Assembly: GCF_009002475.1 (NCBI RefSeq)
Contig: NZ_AP019860.1
Location: forward strand, 3,100,001 to 3,164,000
Origin: Candidatus Uabimicrobium amorphum
Lineage (GTDB): Bacteria > Planctomycetota > Uabimicrobiia > Uabimicrobiales > Uabimicrobiaceae
Reading direction: 5' to 3'
Length of the DNA: 64,000 nt
A program made the translations under genes and the position numbers. The notes beneath the pieces were generated by a model. The model ran no database searches, had not been told where the DNA came from, and worked only from the letters and a program-made list of their open reading frames with translations. This document shows, piece after piece, positions 55,431 to 62,263 of the stretch (position 1 is its first letter; each line of letters starts with the position of its first letter).

Positions 55431-55660
55431 CTCTGGCGCAAATTTACTCTGGCATAGTGCTCTGGTACACACTTACTCTGACACCTGTTTTACTCTGGCA
55501 CACATTTGCTCTGACACCTGTTTTACTCTGGCACACATTTGCTCTGACACTTGTTCTACTCTGGCACACACTTGCTCTGACACCTGCTCACTCTGGCACA
55601 CATTTGTTCTGACACCTTCTCTACTCTGGCACACATTTGCTCTGACGCCTATTCTATTTC
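55431..55660. repeat. Tandem array 1a: 33-base units of CTCTGG / CTCTGACACC
   Basis: CTCTGG begins at 55431, 55447, 55460, 55493, 55526, 55559, 55591 and 55624. From 55460 the spacing is 33, 33, 33, 32, 33. Each unit is two related half-units: CTCTGGCACACATTTG and CTCTGACACCTGTTTTA. The left end is more ragged. It contains no convincing gene and leads into array 1b and then the RAYT gene. Confidence 0.9.
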
Positions 55661-55684
55661 CCTTATATACAAAGGACCACCTTC

Positions 55685-55820
55685 TTTTGCTCTGACACCT
55701 TGCTAATTTTTACTTTTGCTCTGACACCTTGCTAATTTTTATTTTGCTCTAACACCTTGCTAATTTTATCTACTCTGACCTTGCTAATTCATATACAACG
55801 AATGACACCTTGCCAATTTT
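55685..55820. repeat. Tandem array 1b: about 28-base units with GCTCTGACACC
   Basis: GCTCTGACACC at 55689 and 55718, GCTCTAACACC at 55746, then decayed copies at about 55771 and 55801, each followed by TTGCTAATTTT (or TTGCCAATTTT). It shares the CTCTGACACC core with array 1a and with array 2 (60487-60875) but has a different spacer. It ends 109 bases before the transposase start. Confidence 0.88.
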
Positions 55821-56642: not shown

Positions 56643-56842
56643 CAAGCTAAAATTTTATAAAAATTTTAACTACTTTTGTAAAGGCTATGGACTAGTAACA
56701 TTCTAAAACTTCTCAGATATAACTAGCGATTTGAGTCAAACATCCTATAAATTTTCTGGTGTTTTTTCATGTTTTCACAGTATAGTAGATTTTACGTAGT
56801 GAAGTACGTCCAAACTAAATTATTATAATGCGTGGAGTAACT

Positions 56843-58459
56843 ATGGAACAAAAGATACTCAAAATGTTACAAGAAAAACAATTAGTATTATTTTGTGGAG
56901 CAGGTATTAGTCTTGATCCTCCGGCCGGTTTACCAGATTGGCATAAATTGCGAGATTATACTCTTGAAGCTGTTGCTTCTTTAGATCCACACCTACAAAT
57001 TGTTGTTCCTGTATTACTAAACATGGACATGCTTGCAGATCCTGGCAAAAAAGGTCTAACCCCTGAAGTTGTCGCGTCTGAAATTGCCAACCACAGCAAT
57101 GGTTATTTTGAAAGTTTTCGCTCTCTGCGTAATGGTAAAGAAAATGTAAACCATCTCTGCATTGCTGCTAGTGGCTTGCGCTATATCGTTACTACTAATT
57201 TTGATATTTTTATTGAAAAAGCGCTTTTAGAAAAAAATATTACATTTAAAGCGTATCGTTTTGCGGAAGAATTTGCAACGTTTGATAAAAACGATCGGGG
57301 TATTCACTTATTCAAATTGCATGGCTGTATTAGTGAACCTCGCTCCATTACTGCAACAATAGAACAAGAAGCAAAAGGTTTATGTTCTCCGAAAAGGGAA
57401 GTTCTTCGCTATTTACTTGGAAAATACTACTTTCTATTTTGGGGATACAGTGGCGCGGATTTAAAAATTAATCTTGATTATCTACAAATGGAGAGTTGTG
57501 TAGATAACGCCAAAGGATTTATGTGGGATTTTTGGCAAAAAGATGAAGAAAATACTTATGTAAAAAGACTAGCTCATTTATATAGAGAAAAAGCTGTTAT
57601 TACACAAGGAAAACTGCCGAAATTATTTTACAATTTTATCAAAGAAACAGATATTGTTGAATACAGTAACCAACAAAGGCGTGAGTGGCAAAAGAATAAA
57701 AATGAAGAATTACGTATTGCTTTGCAAGAATGGAGTAAAAAATACTTAACTTCAGAGAAATCTTCAAATATGCTTGGGAGGTTGCTTTTACATAGCGGTA
57801 AACTAGATGAAGCCCTATATTGTTTCCATCACTGTTTAGAAATTTGCAAATCACCTAATATTGAGAACGTAGAAGCGTTATTAAACATAGGTGTTGTTTG
57901 TAAACATAGGGGACAATACAACAAAGCTCTTGAGTATTTTGAAAAAGCGCGAATTATTTCAAAGGAAAATCACTATATTAAGGAAACAGTGGCCTCATTG
58001 AACAATACAGGTGTAGTTCATGGTTCTCAAAATCACTACGAAAAAGCACTGCAATGCTTTGAGCAGGTAAAACAAATTGCTCTAGACAACAACTACCAAA
58101 AAGAAATTGCTGCGAGTTTCAATAACATTGGGGCTATTTACAGTAAACAACATAGGTATGATGACGCACTCGAATGTTATGAGAAGGCAAAAAAGATAGC
58201 TTTTGATCGTGGAGATCGACAAAATTTTGCAGCACGCTTAAATAACATTGCATATGTGTATACCAAACGAGAGGAAATAGACAAAGCCCTAGAATACTAT
58301 AAACAATACGAAGAAATATCACGCTCGTTAGGAGACGTACAGGGTTTAAGTGTTGCATGCCACAATATAGCAATGCTATATACTGCGCAAAACAAATGGA
58401 AAGAGGCAAAAAAATATTACGATTTGTATGAGAGTTTTAAGGCAAAGAATAAGCCGTAA
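56843..58459 (+). CDS. SIR2-like NAD-binding domain fused to TPR repeats (candidate defence protein)
   Basis: 538 residues from the ATG at 56843, 6 bases after GGAG; an ATG at 56828 lacks a site. SIR2-like domain (1-270): LFCGAGIS (19-21 GAG), TTNFD (117-121, Asn119 the catalytic-type Asn) and KLHG (His160), the residues used by SIR2 NADases of Thoeris, AVAST and other defence systems. Then about six tetratricopeptide repeats (about 285-535, A..N.G.....Y..AL..FE.A..I type), the likely sensor. A predicted role is NAD+ destruction upon infection. It is next to a RAYT gene and repeats, an accessory-type location. No second defence gene adjoins it. Confidence 0.85.
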   Translation: MEQKILKMLQEKQLVLFCGAGISLDPPAGLPDWHKLRDYTLEAVASLDPHLQIVVPVLLNMDMLADPGKKGLTPEVVASEIANHSNGYFESFRSLRNGKENVNHLCIAASGLRYIVTTNFDIFIEKALLEKNITFKAYRFAEEFATFDKNDRGIHLFKLHGCISEPRSITATIEQEAKGLCSPKREVLRYLLGKYYFLFWGYSGADLKINLDYLQMESCVDNAKGFMWDFWQKDEENTYVKRLAHLYREKAVITQGKLPKLFYNFIKETDIVEYSNQQRREWQKNKNEELRIALQEWSKKYLTSEKSSNMLGRLLLHSGKLDEALYCFHHCLEICKSPNIENVEALLNIGVVCKHRGQYNKALEYFEKARIISKENHYIKETVASLNNTGVVHGSQNHYEKALQCFEQVKQIALDNNYQKEIAASFNNIGAIYSKQHRYDDALECYEKAKKIAFDRGDRQNFAARLNNIAYVYTKREEIDKALEYYKQYEEISRSLGDVQGLSVACHNIAMLYTAQNKWKEAKKYYDLYESFKAKNKP

Positions 58460-60457: not shown

Positions 60458-60486
60458 TACGACTACTCACAAACTTATTTTACAAA

Positions 60487-60875
60487 GACACCACTCTTTT
60501 TTTGCTCTGACACCACTCTTTTTTTGCTCTGACACCACTCTTTTTTTGCTCTGACACCACTCTTTTTTTGCTCTGACACCACTCTTTTTTTGCTCTGACA
60601 CCACTCTTTTTTTGACACCACTCTTTTTTTGCTCTGACACCACTCTTTTTTTGCTCTGACACCACTCTTTTTTTGCTCTGACACCACTCTTTTTTTGCTC
60701 TGACACCACTCTTTTTTTGCTCTGACACCACTCTTTTTTTGCTCTGACACCACTCTTTTTTTGACACCACTCTTTTTTTGCTCTGACACCACTCTTTTTT
60801 TGCTCTGACACCACTCTTTTTTTGCTCTGACACCACTCTTTTTTTGACACCACTCTTTTTTTGCTCTAACACCAC
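60487..60875. repeat. Tandem array 2: 22-base units (GACACCACTCTTTTTTTGCTCT)
   Basis: GACACCACTC begins at 60487 and recurs every 22 bases, except for three 17-base steps (to 60614, 60763 and 60846), where GCTCT is missing. There are eighteen good units plus a decayed nineteenth (AACACCACAC) at 60868. The units are almost identical. Because 22 is not a multiple of 3, all three minus-strand frames are open, giving false proteins of Lys, Glu, Ser, Val and Trp. It fills the 423-base space between the histidine kinase stop (60881) and the truA start, and shares CTCTGACACC with array 1. Confidence 0.95.
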
Positions 60876-60880
60876 ACAGT

Positions 60881-62263
60881 TTAAGCTGACAACAATATCT
60901 TAAACACACTACCATGGTTTACCTTACTTTGAACCAATATTTTCCCTCGGTGTGCATGAACAATGGCTTTAACAAGTGCAAGTCCCAAACCAGATCCAGA
61001 CATTGACCGGGAAGTATCGGAGCGATAGAAGCGGTTAAAAATCAAGCGTAGATCTTTGTTGGGAATACCCATCCCTGTGTCTTTAATAAAAAGTCCCACA
61101 CGCGCTTCTTCTTTTGTGATACCCACAGTCACTTTTCCTGTAGAGGTGTATTTTATGGCATTATCAACTAAGTTCACTATTGCACGGCGTAATTTTTTTA
61201 TATCGCCAAATATGCATATCTTTTCATCAACACTTTCGTAAGATAACTCGATATTTTTGTGCTGTGCTATTGGTTCGAACATTTCGACAACTTCGTCGAT
61301 AAGGTCGTTAATGATAAACTTTTCTCTGTGAATAGATATTTTCGCTTCGGCTTCTGAAATATCTAGTAGGGTATTTAGCCAGTGAAGTAAGCGTTTGCTT
61401 TCTGAAACGCAGTCATACAGTACTTCGCAGTATTCTTCACTAGAGCGTTTTTGCATAAGGGCGACTTCGGATGCTCCTTGTATCCTCGTAATGGGTGTAC
61501 GGATATCATGTGCTAGGTTGTCGCACATTTCTTTTATATTGTTTACTAGGCTGTCAATGCGTGACAGCATCTTGTTTAGAGTTATGGCTAGCATCCCTAG
61601 TTCATCTTTGGGATTTTTTACGGGAATCTTCTGATTCAGGTTGTCTATGGCTATTTTGTGTGCACTTTGCGTCATGTCTCTTATTGGTTTTAGGGTATTG
61701 CGCATCATGATAAAGCCTAAAATATAAAAAACTATCAGTAGGCCGGGGAAAATGTAAATAAAAGATCGCAGTAAGCGATTGAGAAATGCGGTGCTGTTGC
61801 GTAGTGAGTAGACTACATGTAGTATACGACCATCTTTATAGGGAAAGTAGATAATGCGTAGAGGATGCTGACCTTGGGCTATTAGTAGCGTTTCTATAAA
61901 AAAACCACTTCCCATGTCTTGGTATGTCGATGTGAGTACTTCTTTCCATATAGACTGGTCCGTCGAGGCAATTATTTTGTTGTTGGCATCTTTTAAACAA
62001 TAGAATACTTGGTATGCACCTAAGGCTTTTGTACCTTCTTTCATTTTCGCTAGTGTTTTAGGTAGGGATTGAGGGTCTTTAGACATTTCGTGTATTTGTT
62101 TGGCTTCTTGGATAAGCCACTGGTCTTCGATATTTGCGATGTAGTCTGCGACAAAAAAATAAATGCTGGCAAAGGCTCCACAGAGAAAAACGCCGAAAAT
62201 TATTGTGTACAAGATGGTACTGCGAAATGCGATCGAGTGAAACAACCTACTCTTTGATAACAT
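60881..62263 (-). CDS. Two-component sensor histidine kinase
   Basis: 460 residues from the ATG at 62261-62263, 6 bases after AGGGGAG. Two membrane helices (about 12-38 and 165-185) bracket a periplasmic sensing region; a HAMP region follows (RNTLKPIRDMTQSAHKIA). HisKA has phospho-acceptor His252 in LAHDIRTPITR; the ATPase has RRAIVNLVDNAIKYT, DTGMGIPN and GSGLGLALVKAI. The gene overlaps the response regulator gene by 17 bases and is transcribed after it. OmpR/PhoB-partner kinases of this design sense envelope or nutrient signals. The signal is unknown. Confidence 0.93.
   Translation of the reverse strand: MLSKSRLFHSIAFRSTILYTIIFGVFLCGAFASIYFFVADYIANIEDQWLIQEAKQIHEMSKDPQSLPKTLAKMKEGTKALGAYQVFYCLKDANNKIIASTDQSIWKEVLTSTYQDMGSGFFIETLLIAQGQHPLRIIYFPYKDGRILHVVYSLRNSTAFLNRLLRSFIYIFPGLLIVFYILGFIMMRNTLKPIRDMTQSAHKIAIDNLNQKIPVKNPKDELGMLAITLNKMLSRIDSLVNNIKEMCDNLAHDIRTPITRIQGASEVALMQKRSSEEYCEVLYDCVSESKRLLHWLNTLLDISEAEAKISIHREKFIINDLIDEVVEMFEPIAQHKNIELSYESVDEKICIFGDIKKLRRAIVNLVDNAIKYTSTGKVTVGITKEEARVGLFIKDTGMGIPNKDLRLIFNRFYRSDTSRSMSGSGLGLALVKAIVHAHRGKILVQSKVNHGSVFKILLSA

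Follow-up and report, generated by a model that had tools for sequence, protein, structure and literature searches.

One of six dispersed SIR2-TPR genes of Candidatus Uabimicrobium amorphum as a candidate single-gene NADase alarm

The best solved relatives of the SIR2 domain analyzed in this study are KomC, ThsA, and DSR2, all of them NAD+-destroying phage-defense sirtuins, which bears out the kinship with SIR2-fused defense families proposed in a first-pass annotation of this DNA. The homologous pair N133 and H171 of DSR2 is required for the NADase activity (PMC11290490). The SIR2 effector of Avs5 relies on C-terminal TPR/Sel1 repeats for sensing the phage (PMC12931631). According to a study of the FAM118 proteins, members of the SIR2_2 class do not have the zinc module that deacetylation requires (PMC12700824).

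The gene considered here lies in a window of 64,000 nucleotides, that is, the whole stretch of DNA analyzed (positions 3100001-3164000 of a single 9,503,417-base contig), from Candidatus Uabimicrobium amorphum, a bacterium with a 9.5-Mb genome and a G+C content of 39% (PMC11032199, PMC11481906). Its features, in window coordinates, are as follows.

56843-58459, plus strand: SIR2-TPR gene, 538 aa, or 543 aa if translated from the in-frame ATG at 56828
56876-57550, plus strand: SIR2_2 (sirtuin-like, NADase-type) domain, residues ~12-236
56897-56911, plus strand: GAGIS motif, NAD-binding
57191-57205, plus strand: TTNFD motif with the invariant N119
57314-57325, plus strand: KLHG motif with the invariant H160, aligned with H146 of KomC
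57443-57460, plus strand: GYSGAD motif; G201, S203, and D206 are invariant in 11 homologs
57752-58432, plus strand: about six tetratricopeptide repeats with a period of 40 residues; putative sensor or autoinhibitory array

The open reading frame is intact. Its first in-frame ATG is at 56828, 15 bases before 56843; we retain 56843, the start chosen in the first-pass annotation, since it is directly preceded by a GGAG box (GTGGAGTAACTATG) and agrees better with the starts of the paralogs. Pfam assigns SIR2_2 (PF13289) to residues 120-215 of the 543-aa version (E 4e-14; 53.3 bits against a cut-off of 24.5) and TPR_12 to the same protein (E 1.4e-38), and these E-values exclude chance for the domain matches. 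The self-identity of the TPR region is 31% at an offset of 40 residues versus at most 10% at other offsets, consistent with the six or so repeats initially counted. The GAGIS, TTNFD, and KLHG motifs recognized at first reading are all in place, so that the GAG.S, TTN.D, and HG motifs of the SIR2_2 (SIRim) sirtuins are all present. The pair N119/H160, to which activity had been ascribed, is kept and shows no variation across 11 aligned homologs; its correspondence to N133/H171 of DSR2 rests on the common TTN.D and HG motifs. The residue of KomC aligned with H160 is the one replaced in entry 9xvc.

A SIR2 profile matched KomC at E 1e-17, an 8jkz-type Sir2 at 2e-14, ThsA at 6e-13, and DSR2 at 2e-9, and all classical deacetylases ranked behind these four. 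The window protein has no match to PF02146 and does not contain the four zinc-binding cysteines of a canonical sirtuin deacetylase; moreover, no CxxC pair was found in the 12 sequences checked. The window protein also has neither a P-loop (GxxxxGK[ST]) nor a transmembrane stretch. TPRs are classic client-binding scaffolds, and could serve as such if the protein were a protein-modifying sirtuin, either a deacylase or an ADP-ribosyltransferase, with the TPR array selecting its protein clients. The SIR2 fold is generally known to perform deacylation and ADP-ribosylation in other families, as the FAM118 study also states (PMC12700824). None of the results obtained in this study favors such a role, and the absence of the zinc-cysteine pairs, the proximity of the SIR2 profile to NADase sirtuins, and the reported lack of the deacetylation module in the SIR2_2 class make a protein-modifying role improbable. 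The NADase-type assignment follows from the SIR2_2 class, the conserved catalytic pair, the missing zinc-cysteine module, and the identity of the nearest solved relatives; that one gene combines an effector of this type with a TPR sensor is a prediction well supported by the sequence.

Several features of the window copy could suggest that this member of the family is degenerating or silenced. It has the shortest TPR array among six paralogs and lacks four residues just before TTNFD, which are present in 10 of the 10 other aligned homologs. Its G+C content is 0.352 versus 0.385 for the window, and its flank is rich in repeats and contains a transposase. However, the frame is open with every catalytic motif intact, a plausible ribosome-binding site precedes it, and KomC aligns with the same short gap before TTN.D. 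We consider degeneration quite improbable, and activity of the window copy remains plausible given the shared gap in KomC.

The gene upstream of the SIR2-TPR gene encodes a Y1 transposase of the RAYT type (PF01797, E 1e-16; 72.5 bits against NF047646, under the cut-off of 80), and the convergent downstream gene encodes an endonuclease I (PF04231, E 3.5e-44) that, as judged by eye, appears to have a signal peptide. Together with the following arrays, they confirm the surroundings described in the first-pass annotation, namely a RAYT gene with tandem repeats upstream and a secreted nuclease downstream.

55460-55789: tandem array with the core TTTGCTCTGACACC, in the same orientation as the array at 60487-60875
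60487-60875: tandem array with the core TTTGCTCTGACACC, in the same orientation as the array at 55460-55789

The two arrays flank the RAYT, SIR2-TPR, endonuclease, and TruA genes, and contain 17 of the 18 exact copies of the core in the 9.5-Mb genome. On the minus strand at 60467-60915, reading frames of 128-146 aa rich in KKSGVRAKKEWCQ run through a 22-bp tandem array and probably are not genes. RAYT paralogs elsewhere in the genome (L068 and L070), 47-49% identical, have nearby arrays of their own with CTGGCA(C)-like cores, and a separate repeat family may accompany each RAYT. We also considered the RAYT as a part of the SIR2-TPR system, and rejected this, because none of the other five SIR2-TPR paralogs has an evident transposase gene next to it, and the RAYT's own paralogs are located away from them. 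Its position next to the SIR2-TPR gene looks incidental, and no role of the adjacent transposase or nuclease is supported.

The gene is not the isolated one that had been pictured. Five more genes of the same genome have the same full SIR2-TPR layout, with the SIR2 part 51-56% identical, and a seventh, distant paralog (1036 aa) is 34% identical. The six paralogs are dispersed singletons with unrelated neighbors. Their conservation is unequal: the mean pairwise identity falls from 61% in the SIR2 part to 40% in the linker and 32% across the TPRs. The protein length varies from 543 to 1048 aa, and the arrays contain an estimated ~6 to ~15 repeats, if each repeat takes up 40 residues of the length. 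A conserved enzyme part with a differing binding part is what one would expect of a few alarm proteins acting inside the cell; low conservation of the TPRs is also expected from relaxed constraint rather than from sensor diversification. The L022 paralog (L022:7829-10972, minus strand) has a repetitive C-terminal tail of ~440 residues, with units like QQKAQDKAMNELQID.EELD.LI..GKLS and a weak HTH_17 match. Downstream of another paralog, the region L019:11550-17669, encoding a DUF559 protein, small helix-turn-helix-like reading frames, and a primase-helicase (AEP-TOTE, D5_N), looks like a mobile element.

At its own locus and at most paralog loci, the neighboring genes are not defense genes. The main rival to the defense reading is an NAD+-consuming signaling enzyme of the bacterium's own physiology, acting in stress, prey engulfment, or cell differentiation, with the TPRs binding endogenous partners, for instance Ser/Thr kinases. 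Candidatus U. amorphum preys in a phagocytosis-like manner, and its Ser/Thr kinases, many of them containing TPRs, have undergone a large expansion (PMC11032199), which favors such a role, as does the placement of the paralogs among ordinary genes, two of them (L021 and L022) being immediately followed by a kinase gene in the same orientation. Given how many kinase genes this genome has, however, two adjacent ones may be due to chance. Further, TPRs abound in the genome and occur in kinases and CHAT proteins too, so the TPR array need not be a pathogen sensor. Nine CHAT protease domains were found, within reading frames of 879-1447 aa, at least two of which also have TPR matches; TPR-effector fusions, or TPR-controlled effectors, may be a wider theme in this genome.

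The distribution of the family speaks against the physiological role, which we regard as rather unlikely: the family is patchy, it is reduced to a remnant in the only other genome of the same family covered by the searches, and its closest outside homolog is found among mobile and defense genes. The genome has nine matches to PF13289, the highest number among 294 sampled planctomycetes; the next-highest counts are six and five, and 218 of the genomes lack any match. A search of 59 relatives with the SIR2 part yielded only two weak matches outside this genome, the family and order of the host being represented by few genomes in the collection searched. A profile of the paralogs reached E 1e-8 or better in 11 of 392 planctomycetes, a count that includes the genome studied here, and the best outside match among them is a full SIR2-TPR gene in genome G281 (E 7e-65). 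The remnant, in a genome of another genus of the same family (83% complete), comprises only ~50 residues, 48-62% identical to the paralogs, in a stretch interrupted by stops, and lies ~2.5 kb from a DUF4011 helicase-nuclease matching PADLOC PDC-S37.

The closest outside homolog, L027, comes from beyond the planctomycete phylum; its SIR2 part is 49% identical, and it resides on contig VMEP01000003, filed as Parcubacteria LiPW_30; the contig is possibly misbinned and the organism assignment doubtful. Its neighbors include a phage-type integrase, a HEPN protein, a ParA-type ATPase, a QatC-like protein, and a type III restriction-like helicase, that is, a mobile, defense-like neighborhood. In the phylogenetic tree L027 clusters with the six paralogs with strong support, and a separate clade of the six that excludes it is neither supported nor rejected (AU p 0.455). 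The SIR2-TPR copy of Accumulibacter, likewise from another phylum, is split over three frames, reflecting a broken gene or sequencing errors, and the 398 genomes of its phylum contained no relative beyond this copy itself. A genome contig collection gave no match to the single SIR2-TPR protein and three matches to the paralog alignment. No relatives were found in 50,697 phage genomes and IMG/VR, and plasmids yielded three weak matches of 27-30%.

The patchy occurrence, the remnant in the same family, and the neighborhood of L027 fit the idea of defense. We suggest, with a probability of about 0.6, that the gene encodes a single-gene NADase alarm against invaders, with the TPR array as the sensor. 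The C-terminal TPR superhelix would keep the N-terminal SIR2 domain inactive until it binds a particular protein that is produced or becomes exposed when a phage, a plasmid, or another invader attacks; the released SIR2 domain would then hydrolyze NAD+, and the cell would be stopped or killed. By analogy with DSR2 and Avs5, we infer that the C-terminal repeats restrain the enzyme until the trigger binds. The six dispersed paralogs, with their conserved effector and different arrays, could watch for different triggers. In the abortive-infection protein with a TPR sensor proposed initially, the single-gene SIR2-TPR make-up stands, as judged from sequence, and the picture of a lone gene does not. 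It is conceivable, though unlikely, that this phagotrophic bacterium carries six diversified intracellular SIR2-TPR immune receptors with a shared killing domain and NLR-like logic, possibly watching phages, plasmids, or engulfed live prey material.

If the alarm reading is true, the protein would represent a compact SIR2 defense architecture in which neither an ATPase nor a nucleotide messenger stands between the sensor and the NADase, in a host whose feeding mode brings the cell into contact with proteins and DNA of other organisms. Nature would thereby offer the same effector with six different sensor arrays, a set of variants suited for studying trigger recognition by TPRs, a question that the paralog set makes testable.

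The layout itself is not new, since SIR2_2 proteins with TPRs, as here, are already in the tree of the FAM118 study (PMC12700824, Extended Data legend); in its available portions they are listed by domain only, with neither a function nor a multi-paralog set. A literature search for 'SIR2-TPR' retrieved no paper, and the literature searched held no description of such a set of six, specific to one lineage, in which the effector is conserved and the arrays diverge. L027 has the same SIR2-TPR layout, but ends in a SEC-C motif and differs in its mobile, defense-like surroundings. KomC, a solved SIR2-domain NADase, is the best sequence match of the window SIR2 domain, with the same gap before TTN.D and the aligned histidine, but at 264 aa it consists of the SIR2 domain only, with no TPR. 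ThsA of Thoeris (SIR2-SLOG) is likewise a SIR2_2 NADase effector, but has a SLOG nucleotide sensor in place of the TPRs; no SLOG domain was found in the window protein, and no ThsB-like partner or TIR gene is evident among the neighbors of its gene. DSR2 and DSR1 share with it the single-gene combination of a SIR2_2 NADase having the Asn/His pair with a long C-terminal sensor part, whereas DSR2 has ~1005 aa and a detectable sequence relation in the SIR2 part only; the Dsr1 model NF041818 likewise scores 23.7 bits against a cut-off of 1400, in the SIR2 part only. Finally, Avs5 (SIR2-STAND-TPR/Sel1 repeats) contains a STAND ATPase, whereas the window protein, to which STAND models gave no match, runs from SIR2 to TPR without a P-loop domain between; the two are alike in having an N-terminal SIR2 NADase, predicted as such here, and C-terminal TPR-type repeats as the proposed sensor (PMC12931631).
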